Source of the DNA: Pseudomonas hydrolytica
GTDB lineage: Bacteria; Pseudomonadota; Gammaproteobacteria; Pseudomonadales; Pseudomonadaceae
Direction of reading: 5' to 3'
Assembly (NCBI RefSeq): GCF_021495345.1
Contig: NZ_CP099397.1
Span: 248,001-312,000 of the forward strand
DNA: 64,000 nt
Positions within the stretch are counted from its first letter, which is position 1. Each line of letters begins with the position of its first letter. The position numbers and the translations under genes are program-made. Below are positions 22,680 through 44,838 of this stretch, in pieces. Below the pieces are notes generated by a model. The model made no database searches. It worked only from the letters and a program-made list of their open reading frames with translations, and was not told where the DNA came from.

Positions 22680-22722
22680 GCATCCGTAGCTCAGCTGGAT
22701 AGAGTACTGCCCTCCGAAGGCA
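22680..22722 (+). pseudogene. 5' half of disrupted tRNA-Arg(CCG)
   Basis: The sequence runs from the acceptor strand GCATCCG through the D arm (GCTCAGCTGGATAGAGT) and the anticodon loop CTCCGAA, then leaves tRNA sequence after GGCA. No T arm or 3' acceptor strand follows. The matching 3' half is at 44792-44838, whose CGGATGC pairs with this GCATCCG. Confidence 0.92.
22710..22722. other. Left attachment core of island
   Basis: CCCTCCGAAGGCA, identical to 44792-44804. It covers the anticodon loop and 3' side of the anticodon stem. Confidence 0.85.
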
Positions 22723-22782
22723 ATACTCATCGAGTTGAGAAGGGTGTCAGCTAATGGTCAAATAGACCGCCGCAACATATAC

Positions 22783-22859
22783 GCACCAGTAGCTCAGCTG
22801 GATAGAGTACCGCCCTCCGAAGGCGGGGGTCGTGGGTTCGAATCCCGCCTGGTGCGCCA
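22783..22859 (+). tRNA. tRNA-Arg(CCG), island-borne
   Basis: A complete 77-nt cloverleaf with encoded CCA. The acceptor GCACCAG pairs with CTGGTGC; the D arm is identical to that of the broken gene; the anticodon stem CCGCC/GGCGG encloses loop CTCCGAA (anticodon CCG, reading CGG); the T arm is GTGGG-TTCGAAT-CCCGC. Compared with the broken host gene, changes in the acceptor and anticodon stems are compensatory, so the fold is preserved. It lies 60 bp inside the island. Confidence 0.95.
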
Positions 22860-23358
22860 TATCTGATTGATTTATCAGGAATTCTATAAGAGTCGATAAA
22901 TCAACCTGCTCTCATCCTAGTTGCGCTTTGAATTCAAACAGCCCTGCTTGAAGCGAAAAATGAGCACTGCCTGAACAGCTCGATTTAGGTTGATTTTCCG
23001 GCTGTGCCAATTCTGTGCCTAAACCGTGCCTCCAAGTCTGGCCCGCCCGTTCGGCGCATCAGAATTTTGAGTACTAGTCATAAGCTGGAGTCTAGGCTGC
23101 AACTCGTTACTGAGCTGAGAGCAACCACTTATTGCATGGCTACATTCGCTCGACTGGTAGAAGGCGAGTTGCCTTGTTCGCTGCTCCAGCAGCTCTGAGA
23201 GAAGTACGATAGCAAACGACCGACGTTCATATATGGCCAGGCAAGCCACCTCAAATGATACGGCCGCAGCCGGATCGAACCAAGCCTGTTTTGATAGGCA
23301 AGCTTTCGGCTCTGCTTTAGTGTCCACACCGTCCCGTGGAAAATTGAGCCTACATAAA
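22860..23358. other. Island left region without recognised gene
   Basis: An inverted repeat just after the tRNA (TTGATTTATC and its near complement GATAAATCAA, 22866-22903) could end the tRNA transcript. The remainder, AT-richer than the chromosome, holds no frame I can support, apart from a possible N-terminal extension of the next gene from an ATG at 23233. Confidence 0.5.
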
Positions 23359-24888
23359 ATGTCATTCCTGCGAAACGCATCTAAAGCATGCATGCGTGTG
23401 GTGTTTCGCTTACTGGTCGATAGGTCGCTGCAGCCCAGGCCTACGAAAGGAAACCTGCACATTCTTATCCCTCGCTGGGATGCCAAGCTGGGCGACTCTA
23501 TCGTTTCATCCTTCTTCTTTCGAGAGGCTCGCAAACTCAATGCCCGCGTGACCGTTCTGACGGTCGTAGAGCTTGCCCAGATGCACGCGCTGGACTTTGG
23601 TGTGGATCAGGTCGTGATCACGAACGCCAACCCCGGATTACTCGAACTTCGTCGCCTGGCGCAGCAGATTGGAAAGGTCGATGTCGTGGTGCATCTTGTA
23701 GGGAGAATCCAGCCTGCGGAGATCCTGTTTCTGCGATTGCTGCGCCCGGCCCGCGTGTACTCTCTCGATGACCGTTTACGCTGCGTCAATCGCAAGTTCG
23801 GTGAAACAACTGCCGGTCTCGACATGGCCGAGCGCTACCGACGCGTGCTTTTGGACTTGGGTGCATGCATGGTCGATAGGAAGTACATCATTCCCCTTCC
23901 TGACACGATGCCGAACGCCACCTCCGCCCCGAGAATCCTATTCAACCCCTACGCCAGCCGCCCAGATAAAAGCTTGGCCTTCGACCGATCCGTGAGTTTA
24001 CTACACGCCGTCGCCGACGCTTATCCAGCCTGGTCTGTCGGCATCCTATGCAGCCCCGCGACCCGAGAGGATGCGCTGTGTATGGAAGTCGCGGCGGCTA
24101 GACGAAACGTGCGCGTCGTCCATGGGCTGGCATCCCCCAAGGATGCCGCCGGGTACATCCGCTGCGCACAGGTCGTGGTCAGTGTCGACACGGCAATCGT
24201 TCACTTGGCGGTCGGCCTAGAAACCAAGCTGGTGGCAATCTACCCAGCCATGGCTGAACAAGCCAACCCGTGGCTGCCCCCACCTTCTCCTTTGACTCGG
24301 GTCGTCTATAGCCAGCAACACACTGGTCAGATTCGGCGCACCGGCAAGAAGGACATGAATGCGTTCTCAATAGAGACTCTGTTGTACAACCTTCACGAGT
24401 TGTTGGCCACTACACCCGAAACTGAGCAACTCCATTCGCTCAGAGCGCGGATAGTGCCCGGTCTGGGCGTCGCGCAGGGAACCCTCGCTCGCCAGTTGCC
24501 ACTGATCAGCAAGGACTTCCCCGAAGTCGCAGACTGTCACCCAGGGACCATAAACTTGGAGCTTGAATGTCCTCTCGAAGTGACGCAGCCCGACCATCGC
24601 ACTGCTCCGCTCGCCTGGACTCCTAGCGGACGGACGACAGAAGTATTCGACCTGGTACGCATTGAGCTCGAGTTCGGTCCATTACCAACGCGCGTGCCCG
24701 CATGGTTGTACGTTGCCCACGCCTCCCCTCACCGCGGCACACCGACTGTTCATGAGGTGATAGCCCAGCAGTTAAACCTGAGCGAGGTCCGTGAATGTCA
24801 GATTCATCTGCGCGCAAGCGCTGTAACGCTGACACTCCCAGATCAACTAACGGCACCCATCAGCCGCTCGCTCTCTCCTAGCCAATAG
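23359..24888 (+). CDS. Glycosyltransferase family 9 with extra C-terminal domain
   Basis: A protein of 509 residues (551 from an ATG at 23233). The first 350 residues are a heptosyltransferase-like GT9 fold: NLHILIPRWDAKLGDSIVSS at the start and, in the C-lobe, HGLASPKDAAGYIRCAQVVVSVDTAIVHLAVGLE, the usual sugar-nucleotide site. The last ~140 residues are unrelated to GT9. They hold GLGVAQGTLARQLP, then KDFPEVADCHPGTINLELEC, which resembles the cradle-loop barrel of archaeal CTP-dependent riboflavin kinase. The gene converges on, and overlaps by 46 bp, the glycosyltransferase gene of the opposite-strand operon. Sugar acceptor unknown. Confidence 0.75.
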   Translation: MSFLRNASKACMRVVFRLLVDRSLQPRPTKGNLHILIPRWDAKLGDSIVSSFFFREARKLNARVTVLTVVELAQMHALDFGVDQVVITNANPGLLELRRLAQQIGKVDVVVHLVGRIQPAEILFLRLLRPARVYSLDDRLRCVNRKFGETTAGLDMAERYRRVLLDLGACMVDRKYIIPLPDTMPNATSAPRILFNPYASRPDKSLAFDRSVSLLHAVADAYPAWSVGILCSPATREDALCMEVAAARRNVRVVHGLASPKDAAGYIRCAQVVVSVDTAIVHLAVGLETKLVAIYPAMAEQANPWLPPPSPLTRVVYSQQHTGQIRRTGKKDMNAFSIETLLYNLHELLATTPETEQLHSLRARIVPGLGVAQGTLARQLPLISKDFPEVADCHPGTINLELECPLEVTQPDHRTAPLAWTPSGRTTEVFDLVRIELEFGPLPTRVPAWLYVAHASPHRGTPTVHEVIAQQLNLSEVRECQIHLRASAVTLTLPDQLTAPISRSLSPSQ

Positions 24889-25643
24889 CCACGATCAGCC
24901 TCTATGTGCAGGAACAATTTGGCCAGCAAGGTACCGCCAGAGAGAAACTCTTCAACAGACTCCATACGCTTGGCCGTGCGCCGAAAATAGGTGTTGTAGA
25001 GCTTGAGCATGGCTGCATCTCTCACAAGAAAATTTACAACGCTGACATCCCGGCGACGCATCACCTCACAGCTTGCGAAGTTGTACCGTGGATGATAGCC
25101 GGGGTCGACGACATCTCCGGCAATAGGCACCAACTCGTCAGCAAATTGCGCCACGATGTCCTTGATACGCCCAGGATTACCCCACTCATGGGCACCTCCT
25201 TCCAGTCCAGTAGCCAATGCGCGGGCAAGCAGGGGGTTTCCCGGTTGGGACGCGAAAATACATTCACTATGCCAATGCAGCTTATGACTGAGGCCTGCCG
25301 GAAACAGCGAGTTGGTTGGGTCGCGCAAGAACAGTGTGTCCGCATCCACCCACGCGCCTCCATATCGATGGACGAAGGCCATGCGGATGAAGTCGCTCTT
25401 GGCAACTATGGCCTCGACCCCCTCCGCCAGAGTAAATGGCAACGGTTCAAAGGCCCATGGCTTAGCAAGGATTCGAGGGTCGATCAAGTCCGGGACTGTC
25501 CGTGGTGTAAGCAATTGAAAGCGCTCACCCAGGGCTCTACGCATCGAGACCAATGCCAGCGCGACATAGGCTGGCATGACCTGCCCAGGGGCATTTTCCC
25601 AATAGCTCACATATCGAACGGGACCATGAAGGCAGCTGTTCAC
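24843..25643 (-). CDS. Glycosyltransferase, capsular-polysaccharide/GT32-like
   Basis: About 266 residues from a GTG that overlaps the upstream stop by four bases (GTGA); an ATG at 25724 would add 27 residues inside the previous gene. VRYVSYWENAPG at the start and SDFIRMAFVHRYGGAWVDADTLFL (DxD motif) define a GT-A, DxD sugar transferase like Och1 and capsular-synthesis proteins. No membrane segment is evident. It is the last gene of the radical SAM operon, so it probably adds a sugar to the product of that pathway. Confidence 0.75.
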   Translation of the reverse strand: MNSCLHGPVRYVSYWENAPGQVMPAYVALALVSMRRALGERFQLLTPRTVPDLIDPRILAKPWAFEPLPFTLAEGVEAIVAKSDFIRMAFVHRYGGAWVDADTLFLRDPTNSLFPAGLSHKLHWHSECIFASQPGNPLLARALATGLEGGAHEWGNPGRIKDIVAQFADELVPIAGDVVDPGYHPRYNFASCEVMRRRDVSVVNFLVRDAAMLKLYNTYFRRTAKRMESVEEFLSGGTLLAKLFLHIEADRGYWLGESERLMGAVS

Positions 25644-26764
25644 GGATGAGTCGCCCTGCCATTGGTACTTAACAACCCGGCATTTGTCAGGTACTCCCTC
25701 AGCAACACCAAGGAAGGAGCACATTGCGGCTGACCTAGAAACTCGTTACCCAAGGCAGACTTGTAGAGGCGCAGCCAGGTCAGCGCAGGCACCTTCGGCA
25801 GGAAGGTGGCGAGCGACTCTCGGTTTCCCTCCCCGAACAACAAGCGCAGGGTGCGCAGGATTGGTTGGTAGTCGCGCGCAGACAACAGCTCCGCAACGGT
25901 ATCGTCCAGCCGTTGCTCGATCACCACACTATTCAGCCGATCCTCAACCGAGGCGTCGCCCAGCGCCACCCGAGGGTCGATCGCCACGGGATAGATTGCG
26001 CGGAACGACTTTGCACCGTTACGCATGGATTCATATAGCAGTTTGTCGGCAGTAGATCCGGTAACCAACACATCGTCGCCGAAGATCACATGCACACCGC
26101 TCCAACGATAGAAATTTTCAGCCGGAATGACATGGTCCTGGACCAGATTGACGCGCTCCCGCTCCTCGGTGCTGAGGCTGGCGTAGTCCTCGCAGGGCGG
26201 CGCAATCCTGGGCAGCTTGACGTTGATGATGGTCGGCAACGCCATATGCGCCAATTTGACGTTGACCTCCTCTACCACGATCTCATAGAGCACGTTCGCC
26301 GTGGACGGCACGTTGCGCCAACCAGTGGTCATCATCACCACGTTGTCACCACAGACCTTGGCGTTCTGGAACAGGTATGACCATTGCGAGTCTGGCCTAT
26401 CCAGCTCGCCACTGAGGTAGTCGATCAGTTGTCTTGCGAGATACCGGATGTCATGCACACCGCCGTATTTTGCACGGCTGTAGATCCCAGCCAGCGCTGT
26501 GGCATCGCTGCCCGAGGCCATGTCGCGGAACAACCCCGACTCGGCAGGTGTAAGGCAGTGCAGGGCAGTACCGCCAAAAATCGAAACATACTCGGTCATG
26601 CTGATCAGGTCACGTGCAAACAGGTCGGCTGCGAAAGCGCGGAAACCAGTTTTCACATCATCAGCACAGGGCTGAGCGGAAGCCTGACGAAACATCGCCA
26701 ACTGGACATCAGCCGGGCTATTAAGTACCTCGGACCATAGCGGAGAATTTCCGGAGGAAATCAT
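25640..26764 (-). CDS. Type I phosphoribosyltransferase-like protein
   Basis: A 374-residue protein whose only clear motif is a PRPP-binding loop, VHVIFGDDVLVTGSTADKL (residues 224-242 of the chosen start), preceded by a hydrophobic strand and followed by GAKSFRAIYPVAIDP, as in type I PRTases. The first 200 residues match no family I recognise. PRTases attach or remove phosphoribose at a base-like group. The ATG at 26764 has a GAAGGG site; a TTG two codons upstream overlaps the PHP stop. It is third in a tightly packed four-gene operon. Confidence 0.65.
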   Translation of the reverse strand: MISSGNSPLWSEVLNSPADVQLAMFRQASAQPCADDVKTGFRAFAADLFARDLISMTEYVSIFGGTALHCLTPAESGLFRDMASGSDATALAGIYSRAKYGGVHDIRYLARQLIDYLSGELDRPDSQWSYLFQNAKVCGDNVVMMTTGWRNVPSTANVLYEIVVEEVNVKLAHMALPTIINVKLPRIAPPCEDYASLSTEERERVNLVQDHVIPAENFYRWSGVHVIFGDDVLVTGSTADKLLYESMRNGAKSFRAIYPVAIDPRVALGDASVEDRLNSVVIEQRLDDTVAELLSARDYQPILRTLRLLFGEGNRESLATFLPKVPALTWLRLYKSALGNEFLGQPQCAPSLVLLREYLTNAGLLSTNGRATHP

Positions 26765-26766
26765 GT

Positions 26767-27633
26767 TCAAGGCCCTTCAAGTCCTGCTGTCAAAGTTGCC
26801 AGTGTGCCCGGTAACGTCAGGCTGTCGAGAGCGACATCGATTCGACGGCGCTTCTCGTAGTAACTAATGCTCTTCAGCCCCATGGGCCTCAGGGTCTCAA
26901 GCAGTTCAGCAATGCCCGCACCAGCGTCACTCGGGTCATGGGCATCAGACCCAACCGTGAAGGGCACTTCGTGTGCGATGAGCTGCGCCACCAATTCCCG
27001 AGACGGATAAGACCAACGGCCCTGAACCTCCCTCCCCGTTGCCGGGTCCAGGCTCGACTTTCGAAGACCTGAGGCATTGAGCTCGAATGCAATACCGCTT
27101 CGGGCGAGCGGCTCCAGCAAAGGTTCGAAACGGCGCAGGAAGATGTCTTCCGGCACACCGCGCAGCAAGGTGTCGGCGTGCCCTACGGCATCGAACAGTC
27201 CACTGTCTAGCAGACCTTCGAGATTGGCGAAGTAGCGATCTAGGAACACCTGCTCGGCAAGGCGTGGCAGCTCCCAGACCTTCACCATCGTTTCATCTGG
27301 AACCTCCACGTAATGAATCGAGCCGATTACGAAGTCCATCGGGTACCGAGCAAGCAGCTCGCGATTGAAGGCGTCGGTGCCTGGCATGTAGTCGAGCTCC
27401 AGGCCACACAGGATGGTGATCTGCCCCTGAAAAATCTCCCGCGCCCGCTCGATGTCAGCGAAATAGCGATCAAGTTCGGACGCGAGCAGACGATTGCCCA
27501 TATCCACGGGGAACGGCGCGTGGTCGGTGATGGTTAGGACGGTCACGCCGGCGGCGATCGAGGCGCGAACTAACTCGTCGACAGTGCCGATCGCATGCTT
27601 TGAATAAAAGGTGTGGCTGTGTGAGTCGATCAT
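26767..27633 (-). CDS. PHP-domain phosphoesterase (HisJ-like)
   Basis: A 288-residue polymerase-and-histidinol-phosphatase (PHP) fold protein. The metal-binding motifs are present: H5-x-H7 (MIDSHSHTFYSKHA), TDHA near residue 38, the glutamate in CGLELDY, GSIHYVE, GHADTL, and the C-terminal GSDAHDPSDAG. This resembles histidinol-phosphate phosphatase HisJ, but a second histidine pathway enzyme is not expected here. Removal of a phosphate from the product of the neighbouring PRTase is more likely. The start overlaps the radical SAM stop by four bases (ATGA). Confidence 0.85.
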   Translation of the reverse strand: MIDSHSHTFYSKHAIGTVDELVRASIAAGVTVLTITDHAPFPVDMGNRLLASELDRYFADIERAREIFQGQITILCGLELDYMPGTDAFNRELLARYPMDFVIGSIHYVEVPDETMVKVWELPRLAEQVFLDRYFANLEGLLDSGLFDAVGHADTLLRGVPEDIFLRRFEPLLEPLARSGIAFELNASGLRKSSLDPATGREVQGRWSYPSRELVAQLIAHEVPFTVGSDAHDPSDAGAGIAELLETLRPMGLKSISYYEKRRRIDVALDSLTLPGTLATLTAGLEGP

Positions 27634-28658
27634 GCAGCGCCCCACTGTTCAAGCAACCCGGCATGACCTGCCAGCTCCTTCACCAGCCAGTAGGGGTTGT
27701 TCGCCTTGGCGATGATCGAACGAAGCAGCTCGGTGTTATCAAGGCGCGTCAGCAACTCGGTCAAGGGTTGCGTATAAAGTGCTCGGGTTAAGGGTGTTTC
27801 CCGCACGTGGTCGACCAGCCGTTGCCAGTCGACACGGTCAAAGTGAATGTTGCCTAGGCACTGATTCTCGATGCCATAAAGGTATATGTCACCACTAGGC
27901 TTCACCGTGACATCCAAGCCGTTGGCCTGCGGCGGTTTGTTCAGGCTGCCGAAGGTGAAGGGCTTGTTGACCTTGGACTCGATCGCCTCGATGTAGCCCA
28001 ACATATCCAGATAGCCGGGGGCGGTTCCCGGAGCAGGGTGTACGAGGTTCTTGTAGTCGATGCCGAAGCACTCGCCGCCTGCGACCAGTACGTCTTCCAG
28101 CACACTGCGTGGCTCAATGGTTGCTTCAATGCCCCAGTGGAGCAGTTCGGACCTTAAGTACGCGCGAGTGAAGTCGCGATCGGTGTCGATCGAGCGGAAC
28201 GAGAAACTGAGCCCGGGCGGTCGCCGACGCCGCAAATAGTCCAGACTAAAACCATGAGCCCGCCATTTGAGCTTCTCGATATGATGACTGTCGGCACTGA
28301 GGCGGATGTTGCAGGTGTCACCATTGCCCATGACAATTTGGTTCGTCGTATCGTAGAAATCCGCCATCTTGTCATGTGGATAGAACCCGCTGGTGATGAA
28401 TTCGAAGCACTTGCCGCCTTCGGATAACCCGAGAATCTCATGGAACACTTTGGCGTTGTTGAGTGGCTCGCCTTCACCACTGATGGAGATGCGCTTGACC
28501 TCCGAAGCATTGATCAGCCTGGCAAGGTTCTCCCGAGCCAGCGTTGATAGCTCCATGCTGATACCCACCTTGTGCTTGTCGGCATACATACAGAAGGCAC
28601 AGCCGATTCCGCATATCTGGGTGATGTCGATGTAAAGAAGATGACCTTCGAGATCCAT
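27630..28658 (-). CDS. Radical SAM enzyme
   Basis: A 342-residue protein with the CxxxCxxC iron-sulfur motif at Cys16, Cys20 and Cys23 (ICGIGCAFCMYADK), a GEGEP SAM-binding turn (ISISGEGEPLNNAKVF), and a likely partial TIM barrel. No second cysteine-rich SPASM cluster is apparent. Reaction not predictable. It is the first gene of the operon, preceded by a 248-bp gap that would hold the promoter. A longer frame starts at 28796, but the ATG giving MDLEGHLLYIDITQ fits the usual short lead into the first strand. Confidence 0.85.
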   Translation of the reverse strand: MDLEGHLLYIDITQICGIGCAFCMYADKHKVGISMELSTLARENLARLINASEVKRISISGEGEPLNNAKVFHEILGLSEGGKCFEFITSGFYPHDKMADFYDTTNQIVMGNGDTCNIRLSADSHHIEKLKWRAHGFSLDYLRRRRPPGLSFSFRSIDTDRDFTRAYLRSELLHWGIEATIEPRSVLEDVLVAGGECFGIDYKNLVHPAPGTAPGYLDMLGYIEAIESKVNKPFTFGSLNKPPQANGLDVTVKPSGDIYLYGIENQCLGNIHFDRVDWQRLVDHVRETPLTRALYTQPLTELLTRLDNTELLRSIIAKANNPYWLVKELAGHAGLLEQWGAA

Positions 28659-28906
28659 GTCTGATGACTCTGTAAGCCCAGCGCCAGCAGCGCGAGGAGC
28701 TGTCCTAAAGGAAGCGTAACGCTGGCCACGTAAGGCCGCGCTCCGTATGCAAAAAGGGGATTCAGGCCAACCCCAGGACGGGACATTGACCTCCAATTAC
28801 TGGATCTGCACCCAGTGCGGACGAACGAGGCGGTTCAGTATCCGGTGCTCTTACCACAGACTACTCCGAGTATTCCGTAAATTGCGCCGTATCTATCGCG
28901 AGCCAA

Positions 28907-29860
28907 TTAGCCCACTCGGCAGAACGCCAATCCTTGATACCCGGCCGGACTATTCAGAATTGGCAGATCCAATTGTTCATCGCGCATAAACTCCAGCTGC
29001 ATAACGTTGCCGCGGATGATCTCGTGTGCACCGACGGCTTGCTCAGCGATGCTAAGCAAGCGAGCATGGTTCGTTTCGCCTTGCTGGCCCGCCATTAGCC
29101 GCAGCGCCGGATTTTTCAGGCTTTGCTGCAGCCGCTGACCGAACCTGGCATGACGTTCCTTGAACTCATTGGCGAGATGCACCGCCAGATCCATTTCCCC
29201 CAAGCGAGCCAGCACCTGCAACCGCCCCTGGGCAGACATCACCCAACCCCGGTAAGCGGCCGCGAACTCGCCGGGCTGCAGATACTCAAACGAACGCTCA
29301 CTCACATGCTGCAATAGTCCACCAAAGTAACTTTGGCTCTCTGCGAGCTGGCTGTTAGCAATACCGAGCTGCTGCTGCTGCATCGCGGCATTACGATACA
29401 GTCCAGCCTCACTTACCTGCTGCAAGGAGGCATGTAAAGGAGCCAGCCGGCTGATCATCTGCCTGACATCTAGCCACTCGACACCCTGCCGAATATCGTC
29501 GAGCTTGCTATCCATGTGTCTCAGCTGGTTCTCGATACCCTGCAGTTTGTACAGCGTGAGCGCAAAGCCCGCGACACTGACCGCCAGGTTGGCCACCTGT
29601 AGCCCCATGATCATCTGCTGTTGCACACCGAGCATTTGCAGTTGCTCAGCCTGCTGACGCAGCAATTGGGTGTGCTCGGCTCCCTGTTTGAGCAACTGTT
29701 CGGCAGTATCGCGTTCCAGCAGCACACCTTCCTGCAGCCACATCACGATCTGTTTGTCACCCACTCTGCGGATAACGCCACCGATACGTTCATAAACACC
29801 GTTTCTCAGCCCCTCGGCAATCGCCTCCGGCACATCGAAGATTATATTTAGCTCAGCCAT
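28907..29860 (-). CDS. Coiled-coil membrane protein, unknown function
   Basis: A 317-residue protein. From the chosen ATG, which has a GGAG site six bases upstream, the order is a small N-terminal segment (QIVMWLQEGVLLE), a Gln/Leu-rich coiled coil (about residues 50-85), a hydrophobic helix (LQVANLAVSVAGFALTLYKL, about 87-106), a second coiled region and a helical C-terminus. I do not recognise the family. It overlaps the YaaW-like gene by eight bases, so the two are probably translated together and the products may act together at the membrane. An ATG 12 bp earlier is possible. Confidence 0.7.
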   Translation of the reverse strand: MAELNIIFDVPEAIAEGLRNGVYERIGGVIRRVGDKQIVMWLQEGVLLERDTAEQLLKQGAEHTQLLRQQAEQLQMLGVQQQMIMGLQVANLAVSVAGFALTLYKLQGIENQLRHMDSKLDDIRQGVEWLDVRQMISRLAPLHASLQQVSEAGLYRNAAMQQQQLGIANSQLAESQSYFGGLLQHVSERSFEYLQPGEFAAAYRGWVMSAQGRLQVLARLGEMDLAVHLANEFKERHARFGQRLQQSLKNPALRLMAGQQGETNHARLLSIAEQAVGAHEIIRGNVMQLEFMRDEQLDLPILNSPAGYQGLAFCRVG

Positions 29861-30623
29861 CGAAAGCTCCATTCATGAAATCAGTCGCTGCCTCGGCACG
29901 AGTCTTGAGACGCAGCATGGCGATTTGCAACACGCAAGGGATGGTGACCCTGTAAGCTGGGCCGGCAAGATCCATGGCGGTCCAAATACCGGCTATCACC
30001 CAGCCGACCGGCCCGGCTAGCGCGGCGACAGCCCGACCGCCAGCGAAGGTTCCCCCTGCAACCACCGCACTGCGCAGCCCGTGCCCAAGCAGCTGCTGAG
30101 CCATCGAGTTCACGATCACCGTCGAAGTGCGATAGAGGATAAGGCGCGCTACGGCCGGCACTACCAGCCCACTCAGTGCTGAACCATTCAGCAGAGCCGT
30201 CATCTTGGTCTTGTCTAGCCCCGCTTCGCGCAGAATCACTTCCAGCTCGCGCCGATCCTCGCCCGACGACTTCTCCAACGCCTGACGGAGGATCGACTGC
30301 ACCATCGCCTCCTCCAGTTCAATGAGCTCCATCGAGCCAGCCCCCTTGACCTTGAGCTTGCTGGCAACATCCCGGACCACCTCTGTGTAGGAAGGCCCGC
30401 TCTTACGCCACAGGTTGACGAAGCTGTTCCCGCCGAACAGCCGCAGCTCATCAAGGATTGAACTGGCATAGCGGCGGTGTTCCGGGTGGTTACGCTTGAA
30501 GTCCACTTGCTTCGACAGCGACTCGGTATTGGCCTTGAGGATGTATTCCACCAAAGGCTCCAGATCATCATTGCTGGCACGCTCCAGAAGCTGGCGGGTA
30601 TTGCTGATATCGATGACGGTCAC
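29853..30623 (-). CDS. YaaW-family protein, copy 2
   Basis: A 256-residue protein matching E. coli YaaW in layout: an N-terminal DUF3944-like helical part (ASNDDLEPLVEYIL), the ELRLFGGNSFVNLWR motif, the LDVSK-like VVRDVASKLKVK helix, and the C-terminal hairpin GPAYRVTIPCVLQIAMLR. Two glycine-rich hydrophobic stretches (about 165-225) suggest membrane association. No biochemical role is known for YaaW. The start is a GTG with GGGAG upstream. It is a paralogue of the gene at 30932-31759. Confidence 0.8.
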   Translation of the reverse strand: MTVIDISNTRQLLERASNDDLEPLVEYILKANTESLSKQVDFKRNHPEHRRYASSILDELRLFGGNSFVNLWRKSGPSYTEVVRDVASKLKVKGAGSMELIELEEAMVQSILRQALEKSSGEDRRELEVILREAGLDKTKMTALLNGSALSGLVVPAVARLILYRTSTVIVNSMAQQLLGHGLRSAVVAGGTFAGGRAVAALAGPVGWVIAGIWTAMDLAGPAYRVTIPCVLQIAMLRLKTRAEAATDFMNGAFDG

Positions 30624-30763
30624 TACAGAGACTCCCTTTTTCTACCGGTAGGCATCCTGACTAATCAGTCCTGCTCTATGGGTCAGCGCGGCCAGTCGGC
30701 TCGCATGCTCATTACCGTACATAGCTAATCCCTAATCGTTTACTCAACTCACCTGGAGCACAT

Positions 30764-36119: not shown

Positions 36120-37448
36120 TTAGCTGTAGCGGCGCTGCAGGAACGTGTGAAACTCATGAATTGCCTTGGCCAGGGTGCGCCGTTTGCCATCTGTGGCCTG
36201 AGCATCAAGTGAGGATTCATACACGATTTCCAGCGCGCCAATTTCGAGCTCGAAAATACTTGTGCCATCTAGCTGCGACGTAAGTGCTGCGCCTAGTACT
36301 CGGGTATATCGATCTATGGTGCGGCGCCCGGCACTGTGGCCGTATGCAGAGGCGCCGCCCAGCATGTAGGCAATCCAACTCTGGATTAGGCCGGGAAGCT
36401 CTCCGGAACCCTCTGCCTGCAACGGCATCTCGATGGGCAGGTTATCCCGGACACGATCGCGCAGTTCCAGCAACCATGCGGGTGGGTCAGGGCTATCCTC
36501 AGGTCCATCCGAAACAGATTCATCGTCATAAGTCCCCGCCGGATCCTCGAGATCCTCTTGGCCGCAGATATTGCCCCACGATGAGGGGCGCAGGGATTGA
36601 GAGACAAACTCTTGTCGGCAAGCAAAATTCACCAGCACCTGCGGAAGCCGCAGTTGCATTTGCATCCTAAACAGATCAAACAGCTCACTAAGATTTTGTG
36701 GCTGATCCTGTTCAGGTATATCGACCTTCCTCAGAAATGCATCCACACAGCGCATGTGCCAATTCCTACGATGCATCTTGTAACTGCTTTTTTGAACATC
36801 ATCCGCGCAGCGAATTAACAGGGCCAGCGTGGCGGGGTCAGGGAACCACTGCCGAAATTCCGCGCCGGTCTTGCCACGGATTGATAGGCGCAGACGTATC
36901 TCGGGAATTCCCGCCACCCACTCAATGCTTTCCAACGATGAGCCGAGCATCGCATTCAGCTGAGCCACATCGAGCAATCCGCCGCTGTAGGCTGCGCTCA
37001 GCAGTAGTAGACCGATACGCTCTTCTCTACTCAGCGCGTCGAGATCCATTTTCAGGCCCTGTTGCAGAGCTTGAACCAGTTGGCCGCTGCGTTGAATTCT
37101 CTCGGCTGTGTAGACGTCCGGATTGATCGGGTTCGCTGCCCGCTTGATGGCAATAGCAATTCGCGCTAACGGGAACCCTGGAATCTGATCTCTGATTCGT
37201 TGGGTGATGCTACGCAATACGTTACGCAGCGTGTGATTCGTGCCGAGCCACGCCTCAAATTCACGTACGTGCGCCTTCGAAATCCCGGATATGCCACTTT
37301 CACTCAGTAGCCATCTTCCGAACGCTGTGCCTGACTCCGCAGCCTTCGATTTCAGAAGTGCCCGCATCTCAGGCATCCATTCCGGCTCATGAAGCCGAGC
37401 CGACCATATGACACTGCTCTGCTGATCGTTTAGGCGGGGCAGGTTCAT
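36120..37448 (-). CDS. Recombinase-module protein, 442 residues
   Basis: The ATG overlaps the 815-residue gene's stop (ATGA), which decides the start over a frame 21 residues longer. The C-terminal 75 residues (GRRTIDRYTRVLGAALTSQL...TLAKAIHEFHTFL) look like the SAM-like DNA-binding domain that precedes the catalytic domain in tyrosine recombinases. A central segment (REERIGLLLLSAAYSGGLLDVAQLNAML) resembles recombinase box I with the arginine lost. It is probably a non-catalytic partner of the large recombinase. No close family is recognised. Confidence 0.6.
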   Translation of the reverse strand: MNLPRLNDQQSSVIWSARLHEPEWMPEMRALLKSKAAESGTAFGRWLLSESGISGISKAHVREFEAWLGTNHTLRNVLRSITQRIRDQIPGFPLARIAIAIKRAANPINPDVYTAERIQRSGQLVQALQQGLKMDLDALSREERIGLLLLSAAYSGGLLDVAQLNAMLGSSLESIEWVAGIPEIRLRLSIRGKTGAEFRQWFPDPATLALLIRCADDVQKSSYKMHRRNWHMRCVDAFLRKVDIPEQDQPQNLSELFDLFRMQMQLRLPQVLVNFACRQEFVSQSLRPSSWGNICGQEDLEDPAGTYDDESVSDGPEDSPDPPAWLLELRDRVRDNLPIEMPLQAEGSGELPGLIQSWIAYMLGGASAYGHSAGRRTIDRYTRVLGAALTSQLDGTSIFELEIGALEIVYESSLDAQATDGKRRTLAKAIHEFHTFLQRRYS

Positions 37449-39892
37449 TCGGTCACCCACTGGCTGCTCAGGGCTGACCAGCCAAGTTCCCGCAGTAGCG
37501 GGGTAATCCATTCATCGAGAACATTGGCATATGCCGCAGGGCAGAACGACGAATAGGCGTCTTGCGGCTCTTCGCCCCTTAGCCAGTGCCCCATGAGCGC
37601 AGTCAGAGCCTCGGGAGGGCAGCCCCGCTCAGTGAGCTCCGTACGTAGGAACTTCCGGTAACTATTGACTCGATGGCAGGTATAACCGGCTACCTGCACC
37701 ATCTGTTGAACAATTGTGTCCGGGGCAATTTCAGCACGACGTATTCCAGTCGGACTAATCCACAGGAAAAAACCTCGTGACCATCTATCGCGATCATCAT
37801 CCCGTGACAGATAGCCGATCAATTGCCTACTGATAGATGCGCAGTGCTCGAGGTAATTTGTTATTTGCCGCCTCAACATCGGAGGCATGCAAATCAGCCG
37901 ACTCATATGACGATCATCGGCATCCTTGTCTGACAGCGCGCCCATACCCAACACAGAATCAAACTCGTCGATGAGCATCAGAGGGTTGCGGATCGCCCTA
38001 CAGGCTGTAATCAGCGAAAACATCTGCACTGACCATAGGGTGTAACAGTTGTGCCAAGCGAGCATATCGCTGAGACGTCCCTTCGCTTTCTTCCGCAAAA
38101 CCGCGGCCATTGCACTTACATTGTACGCAATGGTTTCGGGCAGCAGGCAGTGAGTTGCTCCCAGCCCGCCCTCTTGATCAGGATTGAGGCCGGCAGGTTC
38201 ATACGCCAGACCAGCACATGCATAAACCTGCGTCAGCACTCGCACCAGTGAGGTCGTATAAATGTTGCGGAGGTGGTTGGCATCGAGCTGCAGATAATAG
38301 CGCGGGGTTTGCGCCGAGGGGATTTCAACGCCTGACAGCATGGATGCCGCTGCTACGTCCTGAGTGTCAGTGACTATTTGGTGAAACAAATAACTGCGCA
38401 GTTTGGTTCGCGTATAGCGTCGGTCGTCTTCACCCAATTCCAGCAGGAGTGCTTTGATCTCGGCGTCCAGCTGCTCAGTTTGATAGGTGAATACCTGGTT
38501 GGCAGAGTGAGGAAATGCCTTGAGCAGCTGCTTTACCAACTGGGCACTACCAGCGAGATCGGGCAATAGAATTCGCAGCAACGATAGTCGGACACCAGAA
38601 GAGGCCTGCCAACGATCGTCGCCAGCCAGGTCTGGGCGCCTGACGACCATACTGAACAGCGCCGAATCCCCTAGGATCAATGCCAGACCATCGGCGTCAT
38701 CTGTTTCATCATCAACGACGGATAACTGGACGACCTGCGTCATCGACTGCCCCAGCCACAGGCTGATATGCAGAGCAACAATCGCCTCCATTCGTAGCTG
38801 GATCCGAGCTGGGTCTTTTGTGCAGGACAGTTCTTGCAGACACGAGTGGAATAGGTCGCTGGCGCCAAACAACAAATTCCGCAACTCCACCAAGGTGAGC
38901 TGGTTGTACGAAAATGGCAGGAACTGTCTGCTTCGTACTATATGCGCCTCAACATTTTGTTGGCCTAGGAGATCAGCAACATACGGACGCTCGCAACCAT
39001 CATCATCGAGCACCCAAATCTCAGTTGATGGGCTGATCTCACCGGGTGCCAGATCACTATCAACGGTGTCTGTATGCCCCACTAGGATGTCGTAGTGACC
39101 AGGTAGCTGGTCAGGATCATCGGGATCACCCAGCACAAATCCGCGGGGATCCTCTGTTATTAAGTTGATCAGTTCTGGTCGACTCTGCTCCTTACGCTGG
39201 CCTCTATGTCCGCCTCCGCCGCCACCCACACGTGGCGACTCGCCGTTGCAGTAACGGACAAATCGGGCGATTGCAGCAAAACTCTCGGCATTCTCTGATC
39301 CCGACTTTCCAGGCAAAAATCCTCTACAGCTCACCACAAACTTCTCGGAGGTGTCCCAGACCTTTAACTCAGGTGGGATGAAGAAGTTTCGCTGTTCGCA
39401 TAAGTTGCCGAGCGCTTTGTAAACCTCGTAGCGCTGACTGATCAGGCGATCGGTGCCTGTTTTATGAGATGCAATGAGCAACTGCGCGAGCAGTCGCTCG
39501 TAGTCCTGAGCATTTTCGTAGTCTCTGAATATGTGCAGAAAAGAGGCATAGGGAAATCCAAAAATTTTTACACCGCGCTGGTGGACAGGATTCCTTGCCG
39601 ACCTGTTGTTCCCCAGCCAAAACTGCTCGCCCAAAAGCACTCGGATGTTGGGTTGGCGGGATAAGGAGATAAGCCACTCGCAGGCCTCATGTAAAACGAT
39701 GTCATCAGAGTTTTCTAGACCAATCGGCACACCAACACTGCATGTGCGGAGCACTCGTACGAGCTGATCAATCGCACGTGGCAGGTCAATTAGTTCGGGG
39801 TGAGAACCTAGCAAATTGAGAATTTCACTGACGATCCAGGGAGACTGTCCCTGTTCAGAGGCGAGCCTCAACAGGATTTCGCGCTTGCTCAT
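37445..39892 (-). CDS. Large tyrosine recombinase-like protein
   Basis: An 815-residue protein. The final 190 residues carry a degenerate tyrosine-recombinase catalytic domain: ITACRAIRNPLML (box I arginine), VNSYRKFLRTEL (Arg746; the usual preceding His is Asn), LTALMGHW (His769) and EEPQDAYSSF (probable nucleophile Tyr780). The N-terminal 600 residues are of unknown fold and include a glycine tract (VGGGGGGHRG). The start overlaps the preceding stop by ATGA. It is most likely the island's integrase. Confidence 0.72.
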   Translation of the reverse strand: MSKREILLRLASEQGQSPWIVSEILNLLGSHPELIDLPRAIDQLVRVLRTCSVGVPIGLENSDDIVLHEACEWLISLSRQPNIRVLLGEQFWLGNNRSARNPVHQRGVKIFGFPYASFLHIFRDYENAQDYERLLAQLLIASHKTGTDRLISQRYEVYKALGNLCEQRNFFIPPELKVWDTSEKFVVSCRGFLPGKSGSENAESFAAIARFVRYCNGESPRVGGGGGGHRGQRKEQSRPELINLITEDPRGFVLGDPDDPDQLPGHYDILVGHTDTVDSDLAPGEISPSTEIWVLDDDGCERPYVADLLGQQNVEAHIVRSRQFLPFSYNQLTLVELRNLLFGASDLFHSCLQELSCTKDPARIQLRMEAIVALHISLWLGQSMTQVVQLSVVDDETDDADGLALILGDSALFSMVVRRPDLAGDDRWQASSGVRLSLLRILLPDLAGSAQLVKQLLKAFPHSANQVFTYQTEQLDAEIKALLLELGEDDRRYTRTKLRSYLFHQIVTDTQDVAAASMLSGVEIPSAQTPRYYLQLDANHLRNIYTTSLVRVLTQVYACAGLAYEPAGLNPDQEGGLGATHCLLPETIAYNVSAMAAVLRKKAKGRLSDMLAWHNCYTLWSVQMFSLITACRAIRNPLMLIDEFDSVLGMGALSDKDADDRHMSRLICMPPMLRRQITNYLEHCASISRQLIGYLSRDDDRDRWSRGFFLWISPTGIRRAEIAPDTIVQQMVQVAGYTCHRVNSYRKFLRTELTERGCPPEALTALMGHWLRGEEPQDAYSSFCPAAYANVLDEWITPLLRELGWSALSSQWVTE

Positions 39893-40356
39893 TTCTCACC
39901 CTCACAGCCCCTGAGCGGTTTTACCCCGACCAGCCGAGCTAGGTGGGCGTGACTTCGATATTCGTGAGGCCACTGCTCCTTTGCAGATCCGATGTTGGCG
40001 TATAAATCTCGTACCTGTTGCCGCGTAATCTGAGCCAGGGCAGGTGCAACCAAGCGCTCAATCAGCACGAGTTGGTAGGCAAACTGCTTGATTCGCCCCT
40101 TCGGCCACTCAATACAGCGCACTGGTGTTTCGGGATCCGTGTGCGCCTTGAGCCATCGATATAGCGTCGTTTGGCCGATACACAGTGCATCTGGGCCACA
40201 GATCACCAATGGGTAAACCTCATTGATCCGAGTGGCCAACGCCTTGGGTATCAGAGCTGGATCAGGAAGGCCTATCGGGGCCAGATCCAGCTCGCACTCG
40301 ACACGAGAAAAATCGGGATGAATTCCGTGGATGTCGCCTAATTTGATCGTCAGCAT
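39889..40356 (-). CDS. Small recombinase-module protein with HTH
   Basis: A protein of 155 residues from an ATG with an AGAGG site (181 from a GTG at 40434). A helix-turn-helix-like segment, CIGQTTLYRWLKAHTDPETP, sits in the middle, and the C-terminal half is helical and basic. It is first in the three-gene module and overlaps the large recombinase by four bases, so it could be its DNA-binding accessory or excision factor. No family recognised. Confidence 0.6.
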   Translation of the reverse strand: MLTIKLGDIHGIHPDFSRVECELDLAPIGLPDPALIPKALATRINEVYPLVICGPDALCIGQTTLYRWLKAHTDPETPVRCIEWPKGRIKQFAYQLVLIERLVAPALAQITRQQVRDLYANIGSAKEQWPHEYRSHAHLARLVGVKPLRGCEGEK

Positions 40357-40498
40357 GACGCCTCTCGCTAGTGTGGGAACTACTAGACAATGCGAGGCGT
40401 TAGTACCCTGTTTGAGGGGTGAATTGATGGACACGTGAGTTTGGGTTCGGCCGGATGGCGTGAAATACCCACTCTATGCCAATAGCCGTTTCTACTGA

Positions 40499-41063: not shown

Positions 41064-41740
41064 CAGGCGTTCCCGGCCGAGGTGTTCGCGGATCTTTACC
41101 ACCGCCGCTGGGGCATCGAAACGGACTACCGCCGCCTCAAGCAGACCCTCTGCCTCGACAACTTTAGCGGCCGTAGCGTGACGGCCGTGAAGCAGGACTT
41201 TCATGCCGGGCAACTGCTGAAAAACCTAGCGCTGCTGATGCAACATCTGCTGCAACCGGTCATCGAGCAGCGCCACAAAAGCCGCAAGCTGCGCTGGAAG
41301 GTCAACTTCACCCAAGGGGTGTCACGCCTCAAGAACACCCTGGTCGACCTGCTGGTACGCCCCGGTGTGCAGGGGCTGGCCAACGTGATGGAGTTGATGG
41401 CCAACAGCCTCAGCGCTGTGCGCCCGGGCCGCAGCTTCCCGCGCCAGCGTAAGCGCCTGGCCAGTCGCGGCTGCGAGGGCTACAAACCGACGCGCTAAGA
41501 ACAAGCAGCACCCGAACTGCACCGCAAAAAAGCTGGCCAGACAGCGGCCGGCACGCGCTCGCCCGGAAAACGAGAAATCCCGCCCGCCGAGGCGAACCGG
41601 CATCCATTAAGCTGGCGTCTGGGTCGCACATGCGCTGAACTGGGGAGCAAAACCAGTGAAGGCACTGCTGCACCGCGCGTCCAAGCCCCGGGATTTCTTG
41701 CCCCGGCCAGGGCTGGGGGCTTAAGTTGATGACATTGGGG
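41064..41740 (+). mobile_element. Truncated IS4-family element
   Basis: From about 41064 to 41740 the sequence is nearly identical to the right two-fifths of the intact element at 42969-44612, including its right inverted repeat (CTTAAGTTGATGACATTGGG). The left part of the IS is missing. The frame 41070-41498 encodes the last ~140 residues of the transposase (YHRRWGIETDYRRLK onward). Confidence 0.9.
41070..41498 (+). pseudogene. IS4 transposase, C-terminal remnant
   Basis: Residues matching positions 282-423 of the intact transposase at 43097-44368, with the catalytic glutamate region but neither of the first two catalytic aspartates. It cannot be active. Confidence 0.9.
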
Positions 41741-41901
41741 TGAAAAGTGGAGTTTTTCTGGTAGCATTTTGTGCGCGGCTGAAGACTTATGGGGCTTTTT
41801 TTGGCGACAAGAATCATAAGGCTTTCAGCCGTTTTTGTTTATGCGGTCATGAGAAATCCGGGTTAGTCTTTTTTTAGATTTTTAAGGGTGGTTAAAAACC
41901 A

Positions 41902-42822
41902 ATGGGCCACGAACATAACCATAACACCGAAGCTATAGGCGATAAGCGTCTAATTGCTGCTATAGGCGTTAACGCCGCATTAACACTGGCACAAATAGTC
42001 GGTGGAATACTCTCTGGTAGCTTATCACTCATTGCTGACGCGCTACATAATTTGAGCGATGCTGCATCACTGGTTATTGCGCTGATCGCACGTAAGATCG
42101 GTCGCAGACCGCCAGATGCATTTAAAACCTTTGGCTATCGACGCAGTGAAACCATAGCGGCTTTGATCAACTTGGTCACCCTGATCATCGTCGGTCTCTA
42201 TCTTATTTACGAGGCCATAGGCCGGTTGTTTTCCCCGCAGCCCATTGAAGGTTGGACAGTGGTCGTGGTCGCGGGAATAGCCTTGGTTGTAGATATCGTC
42301 ACGGCCTTTCTCACCTACACAATGTCCAAGAACAGCATGAATATAAAGGCGGCATTCTTGCACAATGTGTCGGATGCGCTGGCCTCCGTCGGCGTTGTTA
42401 TCGCCGGGACATTGATACTTCTGTATGGGTGGTACTGGGCGGATACTGTACTGACACTGATGATTGCTGGCTACGTGCTCTGGCAAGGCTTTAGCATGCT
42501 GCCTAAAACCATCCATCTGTTAATGGAGGGCGCGCCAGAAGGCGTTTCCGTCGCTGATATAATCAATGTCATGGAACAAGTAAACGACGTCGAGGGCGTT
42601 CACCACGTGCATGTTTGGGAAATCGCTGAGCATACAATTGCACTGGAAGCACATGTTGTCATCAAGAAGGCGAGTCTGCCTGGGATCGAACGAGTGAAGA
42701 CTGATTTGAAACGTGTACTCCATGAGCAATTCAAAATCAGCCACTCGACACTCGAGATGGAGCTAGACGGCAGTGTTTGTCTCGACACCAAGCAGACCGA
42801 AAATCACTGCAGCGAAGCATAA
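41902..42822 (+). CDS. czcD: Cation diffusion facilitator (CzcD/ZitB-like)
   Basis: A 306-residue metal efflux protein of the CDF family. It begins with a His-rich metal loop (MGHEHNHN), has six hydrophobic helices, and keeps both zinc-site motifs (ADALHNLSDA and HNVSDA). A cytoplasmic C-terminal domain follows (VHHVHVWEI...). It would export Zn, Cd or Co by proton antiport. Base composition is clearly more AT-rich than flanking genes, and it sits between two copies of one IS, so it is a recent import. Confidence 0.92.
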   Translation: MGHEHNHNTEAIGDKRLIAAIGVNAALTLAQIVGGILSGSLSLIADALHNLSDAASLVIALIARKIGRRPPDAFKTFGYRRSETIAALINLVTLIIVGLYLIYEAIGRLFSPQPIEGWTVVVVAGIALVVDIVTAFLTYTMSKNSMNIKAAFLHNVSDALASVGVVIAGTLILLYGWYWADTVLTLMIAGYVLWQGFSMLPKTIHLLMEGAPEGVSVADIINVMEQVNDVEGVHHVHVWEIAEHTIALEAHVVIKKASLPGIERVKTDLKRVLHEQFKISHSTLEMELDGSVCLDTKQTENHCSEA

Positions 42823-42968
42823 GCTTACTATGCGCTACAATTAAAACAAGGTATTAACAGAGCGAATAGCCGAATATCACTTATTGGCGCTATGCCCTCG
42901 ACCTGCGACATATTTCAGGGCGGCGGCAAAAACTGAGTGCAACACCTGACCTTTCCGGTACGGTGCTG

Positions 42969-44612
42969 CCCCCAATGCCATCAACTTAAGGAATTTTCCT
43001 ATAAATATCATATAATTAGCGCTAAATTCAGCGCATAGGAGAAACCCTTTTGGCCCCTCATTCCACACCGTTTGACACCGCCCAGCAAACCCTGGCTTGA
43101 AAATTGTACAAAAAATAACCAGCCAGCTCGATTGTCCCGACTTCATCGATACCCACCGCCAGCGCCCTCACGACTTTACCCGCCGACGCCAACTGACCTT
43201 CAAGAACCTCGTCCTGTTTTTGCTCAATCAGCCACGCACCGCCCTGCAAACCGAGCTCGATCAGTTCTATCGCGTGCTCAACCAGGCCTCGGCCGAGACC
43301 CAGGTGGTCACCGCGCAGGCCTTCGGCAAGGCGCGCGGCAAGCTCAAGCCCGAGGTCTTCGAGAGCCTCAACCAAACCCTTCAGCAACAGCTCGACAGCC
43401 TCGGGCTGCGCCAGACGTGGCGCGGGTTACGGGTACTCGCCGTGGACGGCTCGACCGTCCATTTGCCGCTGGAGTCGGTCATGACGCGCTTTTTCGGCTG
43501 CCATAGCGAGTTTCCCGTTGCCCGTCTGTCCATGCTCTACGACGTCGCCGACGGCCAGACGCTACACAGCCTGATCGTGCCATCCGCAGTCGGCGAGCGC
43601 GATTGCGCCCATCTGCACCTCGCGCATCTGCCCGCTGACAGCCTGACGTTGTTTGATCGCGGCTACCCCGGACACTGGCTGTTTGCGCTGCTCGAGCAGC
43701 ACCGGCGACATTTCCTGATGCGCCTGCCGTGTGGCTACAACGAGCAGGTCAAACAGTTTCTCCGCTCGGGGCAGACAGAAGACACGCAGTTCTTCTCTGC
43801 CAGTCATCCCGAGGCGCGCCTGTTCTGTACCGAGGCCGGCGTCGATCCCGCGGGCCGGGTCGAATTGCGCCTGATCCGGGTCGAGCTAGCCAGCGGTGAA
43901 AGCGAAGTGCTGCTGACCTCCCTGCTGGATCGACAGGCCTTCCCGGCCGAGGTGTTCGCGGATCTTTACCACCGCCGCTGGGGCATCGAAACGGACTACC
44001 GCCGCCTCAAGCAGACCCTCTGCCTCGACAACTTTAGCGGCCGTAGCGTGACGGCCGTGAAGCAGGACTTTCATGCCGGGCAACTGCTGAAAAACCTAGC
44101 GCTGCTGATGCAACATCTGCTGCAACCGGTCATCGAGCAGCGCCACAAAAGCCGCAAGCTGCGCTGGAAGGTCAACTTCACCCAAGGGGTGTCACGCCTC
44201 AAGAACACCCTGGTCGACCTGCTGGTACGCCCCGGTGTGCAGGGGCTGGCCAACGTGATGGAGTTGATGGCCAACAGCCTCAGCGCTGTGCGCCCGGGCC
44301 GCAGCTTCCCGCGCCAGCGTAAGCGCCTGGCCAGTCGCGGCTGCGAGGGCTACAAACCGACGCGCTAAGAACAAGCAGCACCCGAACTGCACCGCAAAAA
44401 AGCTGGCCAGACAGCGGCCGGCACGCGCTCGCCCGGAAAACGAGAAATCCCACCTGCCGAGGCGAACCGGCATCCATTAAGCTGGCGTCTGGGTCGCACA
44501 TGCGCTGAACTGGGGAGCAAAACCGGTGAAGGCACTGCTGCAACCGCGCGTCCAAGCCCCGGGTTTTCTTGCCCCGGTCAGGGCTGGGGGCTTAAGTTGA
44601 TGACATTGGGGG
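42969..44612 (+). mobile_element. Intact IS4-family insertion sequence
   Basis: About 1.64 kb bounded by 22-bp inverted repeats with one mismatch (42969-42990, CCCCCAATGCCATCAACTTA...; 44591-44612). It encodes a single DDE transposase. I found no clear target-site duplication. Confidence 0.9.
43097..44368 (+). CDS. IS4-family DDE transposase
   Basis: A 423-residue transposase with the IS4 catalytic triad: Asp117 (LAVDGSTVH), Asp187 (TLFDRGYPGHW) and Glu298 in the Y-R-E-K-like signature YHRRWGIETDYRRLK (291-305). The start is a TTG; no better start is visible. The frame is intact end to end, so the element may be mobile. It shares its last 140 residues with the remnant at 41070. Confidence 0.92.
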   Translation: MKIVQKITSQLDCPDFIDTHRQRPHDFTRRRQLTFKNLVLFLLNQPRTALQTELDQFYRVLNQASAETQVVTAQAFGKARGKLKPEVFESLNQTLQQQLDSLGLRQTWRGLRVLAVDGSTVHLPLESVMTRFFGCHSEFPVARLSMLYDVADGQTLHSLIVPSAVGERDCAHLHLAHLPADSLTLFDRGYPGHWLFALLEQHRRHFLMRLPCGYNEQVKQFLRSGQTEDTQFFSASHPEARLFCTEAGVDPAGRVELRLIRVELASGESEVLLTSLLDRQAFPAEVFADLYHRRWGIETDYRRLKQTLCLDNFSGRSVTAVKQDFHAGQLLKNLALLMQHLLQPVIEQRHKSRKLRWKVNFTQGVSRLKNTLVDLLVRPGVQGLANVMELMANSLSAVRPGRSFPRQRKRLASRGCEGYKPTR

Positions 44613-44791
44613 CTGGCTAGGTGTCAAAAAGCGCTGGGCCCCATTTCTTTTTTTGTGCCCTAGATAACCACCCTTAGATATCGCTAAGAGCTATAAACTG
44701 CAGGCAGTTAGATAAGGCCAAAGCTTTGCGGGACGGCACTTAGAGGCATTTTTGAACGCTTGCCACCAACCAAGATTCCTGTACCGCATTA

Positions 44792-44804
44792 CCCTCCGAA
44801 GGCA
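44792..44804. other. Right attachment core of island
   Basis: CCCTCCGAAGGCA, the second copy of the 13-bp core at 22710-22722. It begins the 3' half of the broken tRNA. Confidence 0.85.
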
Positions 44805-44838
44805 GGGGTCGTGGGTTCGAATCCCGCCGGATGCGCCA
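44792..44838 (+). pseudogene. 3' half of disrupted tRNA-Arg(CCG)
   Basis: Half anticodon loop, variable loop, T arm (GTGGG-TTCGAAT-CCCGC) and acceptor strand CGGATGC with GCCA. It lacks the D arm and 5' acceptor strand, which are at 22680-22722. Confidence 0.92.

Follow-up and report, generated by a model that had tools for sequence, protein, structure and literature searches.

How does a bacterium keep reading a codon when a genomic island breaks the transfer RNA (tRNA) gene that serves it and rebuilds the gene at neither end? This question is raised by a stretch of 64,000 nucleotides from Pseudomonas hydrolytica (NZ_CP099397.1, assembly GCF_021495345.1, positions 248,001-312,000 of the forward strand), hereafter the window, whose positions are used throughout. 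In the window, an island separates the two halves of a tRNA-Arg(CCG) gene and carries, just inside its left end, a complete tRNA-Arg(CCG). The island is very probably a decayed member of a family that uses a tyrosine integrase to enter the single-copy tRNA-Arg(CCG) gene at its anticodon loop and places a complete substitute 60 bp from the attachment core, downstream of a captured promoter. The elements on which this reading depends are the following.

22638..22666, plus strand: sigma-70-like promoter native to the broken tRNA gene and predicted to drive transcription of the substitute (consensus scan)
22680..22722, plus strand: host tRNA-Arg(CCG), 5' half with the core CCCTCCGAAGGCA at its end; left attachment site, attL (repeat search; empty site of genome G177)
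22723..22782, plus strand: 60-nt spacer belonging to the island, nearly antisense to the 5' half of the host tRNA; no promoter recognisable in it (scan, folding)
22783..22859, plus strand: substitute tRNA-Arg(CCG) of type A, with acceptor GCACCAG and anticodon stem CCGCC/GGCGG (ARAGORN)
44792..44838, plus strand: core and 3' half of the host tRNA-Arg(CCG); right attachment site, attR (repeat search)

The original prediction, made from the sequence letters, had placed two tRNA-Arg(CCG) halves sharing a core at 22680-22722 and 44792-44838. Both coordinates proved exact, and the core is a 13-bp repeat, CCCTCCGAAGGCA. With at most one mismatch, the 12-mer CCCTCCGAAGGC occurs in the window solely at 22710, 22813 and 44792 (chance expectation 0.64). 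It had also been claimed that neither junction rebuilds the gene and that a complete tRNA-Arg(CCG) lies 60 bp inside the left end, and this is what ARAGORN finds: the sole tRNA in the window is the tRNA-Arg(CCG) at 22783-22859, beyond the spacer. Among 30 congener loci compared with the window flanks, L039 (genome G177) has an empty site, with 91% identity to the left flank up to the core and 97.9% to the right flank from the core onward, each over about 1.5 kb. Comparison with an island-free relative had been set beforehand as a test of the claim, which survives it: in G177 the flanks are joined as one intact tRNA with GCATCCG and CGGATGC paired. Because the gene is intact at this empty site, it was whole before insertion. 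The insertion into tRNA-Arg(CCG) is real and precise. Guanine-cytosine content is mostly 0.61-0.72 in the flanks and 0.50-0.61 in the island. None of the 240 plasmid and 142 phage records with a match to the left end (22640-22960) covers 80% of it, and among the matches listed, those to plasmids and phages lie over the tRNA parts. At one further congener locus (L045, genome G015), where the tRNA-Arg(CCG) is intact, another 3' fragment lies at a distance of about 0.9 kb; this gene thus seems to be a target of an ordinary tRNA-restoring element as well.

The genome, a single contig of 5.29 Mb, has 63 tRNA genes (Rfam). Its tRNA-Arg anticodons are ACG (three by coordinates), CCG (one), CCT (one) and TCT by ARAGORN, whose isotypes include no tRNA-Arg(UCG), the other species able to read CGG. 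A genome-wide count, suggested along with the prediction, gave a single tRNA-Arg(CCG) gene, that of the island, with genes counted by Rfam and isotypes assigned by ARAGORN. The isotype table has 78 entries for the 63 genes, some minus-strand loci appearing twice in it, but a single entry for tRNA-Arg(CCG). The inosine-containing ACG type reads CGU, CGC and CGA, not CGG; since no other CCG or TCG gene is present, the island tRNA is the only CGG reader. In 24 long open reading frames (ORFs) outside the island, chosen by a longest-ORF heuristic that may admit spurious frames, 24.6 of every 1000 codons are CGG. The tRNA count suggests that the host relies on the island for CGG reading, and the disrupted tRNA would presumably be essential. 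Among 199 sampled congeners, 196 have an intact tRNA-Arg(CCG) match, the window genome by way of its island copy, and 195 of these have a single match (in G079, two contigs bear one match apiece). Among the matches listed, native genes have CTGCC/GGCAG, or a sequence close to it, as their anticodon stem, and CCGCC/GGCGG occurs in the window genome only. No tRNA-Arg(CCG) half was recognised on closer inspection of the remaining three (G068, G082 and G123), where an assembly gap and divergence look alike; they were left out of the split cases. The idea that the island destroys an important tRNA and makes itself indispensable thus stands in its first part, the tRNA being broken and the substitute being the sole CCG copy, but indispensability would hold against deletion only. 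Because attR is intact in the window, precise excision would restore the native gene; searches of the island and of the genome found no integrase gene.

The same arrangement recurs in other bacteria. A pattern search for a 5' half without a following 3' half returned three of 298 congeners (the window genome, G064 and G113). A scan for the spacer motif, with one genome per species, gave 16 loci, of which three are unrelated and 13, in Pseudomonas and Stutzerimonas, have the full layout, in which a spacer of 60 nt (58 nt in P. indoloxydans) separates the host 5' half from the substitute. In a family-wide sample the layout is present in 15 of 398 genomes and 3 of 19 genera. Five of these genomes are new; the other ten are the window genome, G064, G113 and seven that share contig coordinates with loci already known. 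Altogether, 23 left ends were collected in 22 records from Pseudomonas and Stutzerimonas, with 15 distinct leaders, and the substitute is complete at 22 of the 23, being broken in the outer element of S. stutzeri KOS6 by a nested one. One contig of IMG/VR carries the same architecture. This entry of a viral collection (IMGVR_UViG_2501799902_000006; loci L162 and L218), which has the left end, the substitute tRNA and a type-B integrase, may be a misclassified island. Sister islands also resemble the window island at both ends.

22723..23030, plus strand: left end common to sister islands (80% identity to G113 over the stretch)
44609..44791, plus strand: right end common to sister islands (99.5% identity to KOS6, 96% to G308, 90% to G113, 79% to G064)

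Two element-specific substitutes occur irrespective of the host: type A, with acceptor GCACCAG and CCGCC in the anticodon stem, and type B, with GCACCTG and TTGCC. The broken halves differ by locus, being GCATCCG, GCACTCG or GCACCAG, and in KOS6 the GCACCTG of a type-B substitute. At the right ends, where in draft genomes the two island ends may sit on different contigs, the 3' acceptor strand is complementary to the 5' half at the genome's own locus in 16 of 16 cases, in four versions. This count omits one G064 row, an intact substitute tRNA, and 12 of the 16 are informative, the host acceptor in G307 (twice), G523 and G418 being GCACCAG, the same as in the type-A substitute. The agreement between right ends and 5' halves, together with the constant substitute, indicates site-specific insertion into whichever tRNA-Arg(CCG) is present.

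Ten of the 16 right ends (G113, G310, G300, G302, G308, G298, contig C31 of G307, G523, G418 and G064) show a small loss directly after the core, nine times GGCAGGGG to GGAGGGG and once of 3 nt, the same across species; the window attR is intact. Excision from such a site would leave a mismatched anticodon stem, and decay, selection for locking and the sequence of the element's own attachment site (attP) are candidate causes. In G496 and G522, which have a left end and a substitute, no host 3' half was found at up to three mismatches. These two hosts and that of the outer KOS6 element may have lost the means to recover the native tRNA.

The KOS6 locus shows one such element inside another. From the left, it reads host 5' half (GCACTCG), type-B spacer and the 5' half of a type-B tRNA (GCACCTG), followed by a type-A spacer, a complete type-A tRNA and a type-A element of about 71 kb with an integrase. 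At the inner right end come the type-B 3' half (CAGGTGC), then type-B left-end sequence and a truncated type-B integrase identical over 108 residues. This order implies that the next element landed in a substitute tRNA. The right half of the outer element was found neither by exact patterns in 132 kb nor at up to two mismatches in the whole assembly. The DNA has also moved recently, as indicated by a near-identical island beside an unmatched flank: positions 22723-35079 are 99.96% identical to an island of P. ceruminis over the whole stretch compared, while the 7.7-kb left flank of the window has no blastn match to the 8-kb P. ceruminis locus that holds the island's left end. The broken tRNA acceptor is GCACTCG in P. 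ceruminis and GCATCCG in the window.

Sister islands encode a tyrosine recombinase of 386 amino acids with Arm-DNA-bind_2 (PF12167) and Phage_integrase (PF00589) domains. It is full-length with type-B ends in G298 and G309, at most 1 kb from the type-B substitute, and in the IMG/VR contig, and with type-A ends in G300, G113, G301 and the inner KOS6 element; G306 has a fragment at a contig end. S. kunmingensis is among the carriers of a full-length copy. The two types are about 89% identical, each pairing with its own end type in the cases seen, and a protein cluster named from Pseudomonas aeruginosa, 99% identical to the type-A integrase, has 363 member sequences. Several sister islands that were read through, including those of G064 and a 7-kb island of S. 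frequens, show no integrase. None was found in the window, either by Pfam in 18 island and two flanking ORFs or by tblastn with four relatives' integrases, and a search of the whole genome gave at best a 22% match. Positions 32578-36122 and 36121-41071 align to KOS6 13306-16850 and 41684-46635, and meet at the following point.

36121..36122, no strand assigned: junction at which a KOS6 segment of about 24.8 kb, including the integrase gene, is absent (KOS6 alignment)

Because the KOS6 integrase (38117-39274) lies inside the segment missing from the window, a deletion in the window lineage is the likely cause of the loss. More distant integrases, at 51-57% identity, occur in an Acinetobacter plasmid, an Aeromonas record and an IMG/VR contig. 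The stretches examined around them contain no tRNA-Arg(CCG) half and no complete tRNA, so tRNA substitution is documented within this clade only. In the Acinetobacter plasmid, a 3' tRNA-like end, of a different kind, lies about 1 kb away from the integrase. As for NZ_AP026896.1 (L216), a 4.94-Mb "plasmid" of Aeromonas caviae with 18 annotated features, it is probably a mislabelled chromosome.

These observations suggest the following course of events. An integrase of the PF12167/PF00589 kind would insert the island at the anticodon loop, splitting a single-copy tRNA-Arg(CCG) gene that is not rebuilt, and a complete tRNA-Arg(CCG) would come in with it 60 bp from the attachment core. The insertion would set the substitute behind the promoter of the broken gene, to give a transcript of dead 5' half, 60-nt spacer and substitute, from which RNase P would release the substitute. 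The near-antisense spacer would hold the dead half in a hairpin, away from pairing with the substitute. The substitute, which itself contains the attachment core, can then be a target for the next element, so that nesting is possible.

The RNA part of this scheme centres on the start of the presumed transcript.

22680..22747, plus strand: predicted leader hairpin between the broken 5' half and the antisense spacer (folding of 22680-22782)

The window leader (22680-22782) folds at -40.6 kcal/mol, with z of -5.2 against full shuffles and -6.1 against shuffles of the spacer only. In all 15 distinct leaders, pairing beyond the anticodon loop, with the core end and the spacer, is predicted for 22-26 of the 32 nt that precede this loop. 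Against spacer-only shuffles, z ranges from -3.9 to -6.9 and one shuffle in 3000 reaches the real energy; no shuffle in 1000 matches the real duplex between spacer and tRNA half. In the control, for which island sequence was folded together with the dead 3' half, z lies between -0.84 and +1.61 for 15 distinct right ends, without a hairpin effect. Folding predictions thus strongly support the leader hairpin as a structure. When the predicted full transcript was folded for 14 of the 15 leaders (the outer KOS6 leader, which has no intact tRNA, was left out), the acceptor stem of the substitute had a probability of 0.92-1.00 in 12, compared with means of 0.38-0.72 for shuffled spacers. Real spacers give a higher predicted acceptor-stem probability and less cross-pairing, and a benefit of the hairpin to the substitute tRNA is a reasonable inference from these models.

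Several results weigh against parts of this account. In L107 and L114, where the dead half shares the acceptor sequence of the substitute, the acceptor stem reaches only 0.36 and 0.32 (shuffled 0.12 and 0.17), and the T arm falls below shuffled spacers (0.09 versus 0.55 and 0.35 versus 0.46). Real spacers bring no gain for the anticodon stem and a small one for the T arm, and single leaders are not extreme, 1-23 of 60 shuffles reaching the real acceptor-stem value. The type-A substitute, even when folded by itself, does not come out as a cloverleaf in energy models, and the spacer's outer antisense arm shows no sequence variation, which precludes a covariation test. Other tRNA-Arg 5' halves pair with the spacer similarly (TCT -27.7, CCG -26.8, ACG -24.4), so the spacer is not specific to CCG. 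A search of viral contigs for attP or a circular form found none, and the window island lacks an integrase, its own mobility being deduced from relatives. We propose tentatively, at a shade short of an even chance, that the island encodes an RNA device: a leader antisense to the tRNA half that the insertion itself creates would trap this half in a hairpin upon transcription from the captured promoter, securing folding and processing of the substitute, which would then be the next landing site in a serial replacement of the sole tRNA-Arg(CCG).

The complementarity of the spacer could instead be a DNA feature of the integrase attachment site, such as inverted core and arm sites, in which case the substitute matters and the hairpin does not. 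This is a real possibility, although we think it somewhat less probable than its opposite. The spacer sequence is strongly conserved, and its inner TGCC-CTCCGAA-GGCA, with GAGTA/TACTC, resembles the inverted core sites that flank the overlap region of tyrosine recombinases in general. However, the complementarity extends for about 30 nt from the overlap and spans nearly the whole tRNA half, more than a core site usually occupies; 11-nt words of the spacer, at up to one mismatch, are not repeated in 22860-23060 or the right end; and the attR side has no such complementarity.

Alternatively, a promoter within the element could serve the substitute, as in the mycobacteriophage case, and none would be captured. 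The tRNA of phage Fionnbharth is described, in the part of the source available, as having a strong promoter of its own (PMC10865867), and many promoters escape consensus scans. The predicted native promoter upstream of the substitute, TGGACG-N17-TATGAT, is nevertheless present at 22638-22666 as the only sigma-70-like match in 22560-22960, and the scan detected no other such site in the spacer or in the right end of the island, which would lie upstream of the tRNA in a circular form. Moreover, a promoter-like pair, TGGAC...TATGAT or TATCAT, precedes the broken half in the 13 left-end loci listed. We therefore consider an internal promoter unlikely. As regards the claim of a substitute supplied through promoter capture, the position of the substitute behind the native promoter and the lack of competing sites in the consensus scan are confirmed, and its transcription from there is deduced; the captured native promoter apparently drives the substitute tRNA.

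It is highly improbable that the island is an ordinary tRNA-restoring one whose restoring 3' fragment was altered later. Canonical elements do seem to use the same gene (L045, with an intact tRNA and a 3' fragment), yet all 23 left ends continue from the broken half into a separate tRNA, never into that half's own 3' counterpart. Least credible of all is a pair of tandem tRNA-Arg(CCG) genes of which the island entered one and supplied nothing, as the two tRNA starts, 103 bp apart in the same orientation, might suggest: the empty site holds one gene, which refutes a tandem origin for this lineage, a single match is present in 195 of the 196 congeners that have any, and the spacer and the substitute accompany the element from host to host and are nested in KOS6.

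Between its ends, the island carries the following genes.

23233..28796, no strand assigned: glycosyltransferase-like, PHP-domain and weak radical-SAM-like genes (Pfam)
28907..31759, minus strand: JukB-like gene (28907-29872), JukA (29853-30623) and a second JukA-like gene (30932-31759), for anti-phage defence (PADLOC)
31790..40434, minus strand: genes of unknown function, including an AAA ATPase (34381-36078) similar to the PADLOC candidate PDC-M26A (Pfam, PADLOC)
41082..44368, plus strand: transposase gene sequences around a cation-efflux gene at 41902-42822 (Pfam DDE_Tnp_1, Cation_efflux)

The matches to JukA (9.1e-101) and JukB (1.8e-08) in PADLOC qualify it as a defence island; this cargo module is uninformative on the mode of integration. 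No phage structural families were found by Pfam among 18 island ORFs, smaller ORFs falling outside the scan. In 41082-44608, the cation-efflux gene lies between near-identical transposase sequences (by eye at about 41330-41740 and 44200-44610). The corresponding KOS6 interval holds about 25 kb, which we take to include genes resembling a Wadjet-type system.

The principle of substitution, which the original prediction had regarded as unusual, is already published for phages. In tRNA-dependent lysogeny, as set out in the accessible part of that report, mycobacteriophages and their relatives integrate at a short core without reconstruction, and the phage tRNA is required (Guerrero-Bustamante and Hatfull, 2024; PMC10865867); the discussion mentions the Lactobacillus prophage Lj965 as a further case. 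The likeness extends to a core of about 10 bp in a tRNA gene with neither junction rebuilt, to an element tRNA of the same isotype that replaces the host tRNA (essential in the phage case) and to a tyrosine integrase, present in the phages and in sister islands and not found in the window copy. In contrast to these elements, which in the text seen are temperate phages of Actinobacteria, those described here are islands with defence cargo. Whereas the Fionnbharth tRNA has its own promoter, the island tRNA lies 60 nt inside attL and is apparently promoterless; the antisense leader and nesting in the substitute likewise set the islands apart from the phages as portrayed in those sections. Canonical tRNA-targeting islands (Islander) restore the gene at one end and displace one fragment, according to the portion consulted (PMC4383910). 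The present family shares with them a tyrosine integrase, anticodon-centred attachment and tRNA fragments at the ends; unlike them, the window island has fragments at both ends, no restored gene and no integrase gene found. In Sinorhizobium meliloti, phage-related sequences bring tRNA genes that substitute for a host tRNA gene, for which the authors cite tRNA-dependent lysogeny; the available part of that paper describes neither promoter capture nor an antisense leader (PMC11476347). A literature search, with most subscription papers outside its reach, found no islands with such a replacement tRNA. What is new here is a non-phage defence island, apparent promoter capture, nesting and the antisense leader.

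These results suggest that a family of islands in Pseudomonas and Stutzerimonas, some of them with defence genes, makes use of host-tRNA replacement, a strategy hitherto demonstrated for phages. This accounts for how such islands can become hard to lose once the integrase is gone. Island finders that seek a restored tRNA and one fragment could miss such islands. The leader antisense to a tRNA half offers an easily testable RNA mechanism. More broadly, the one tRNA with which a bacterium reads a common codon can have come from a mobile element and be replaced repeatedly.

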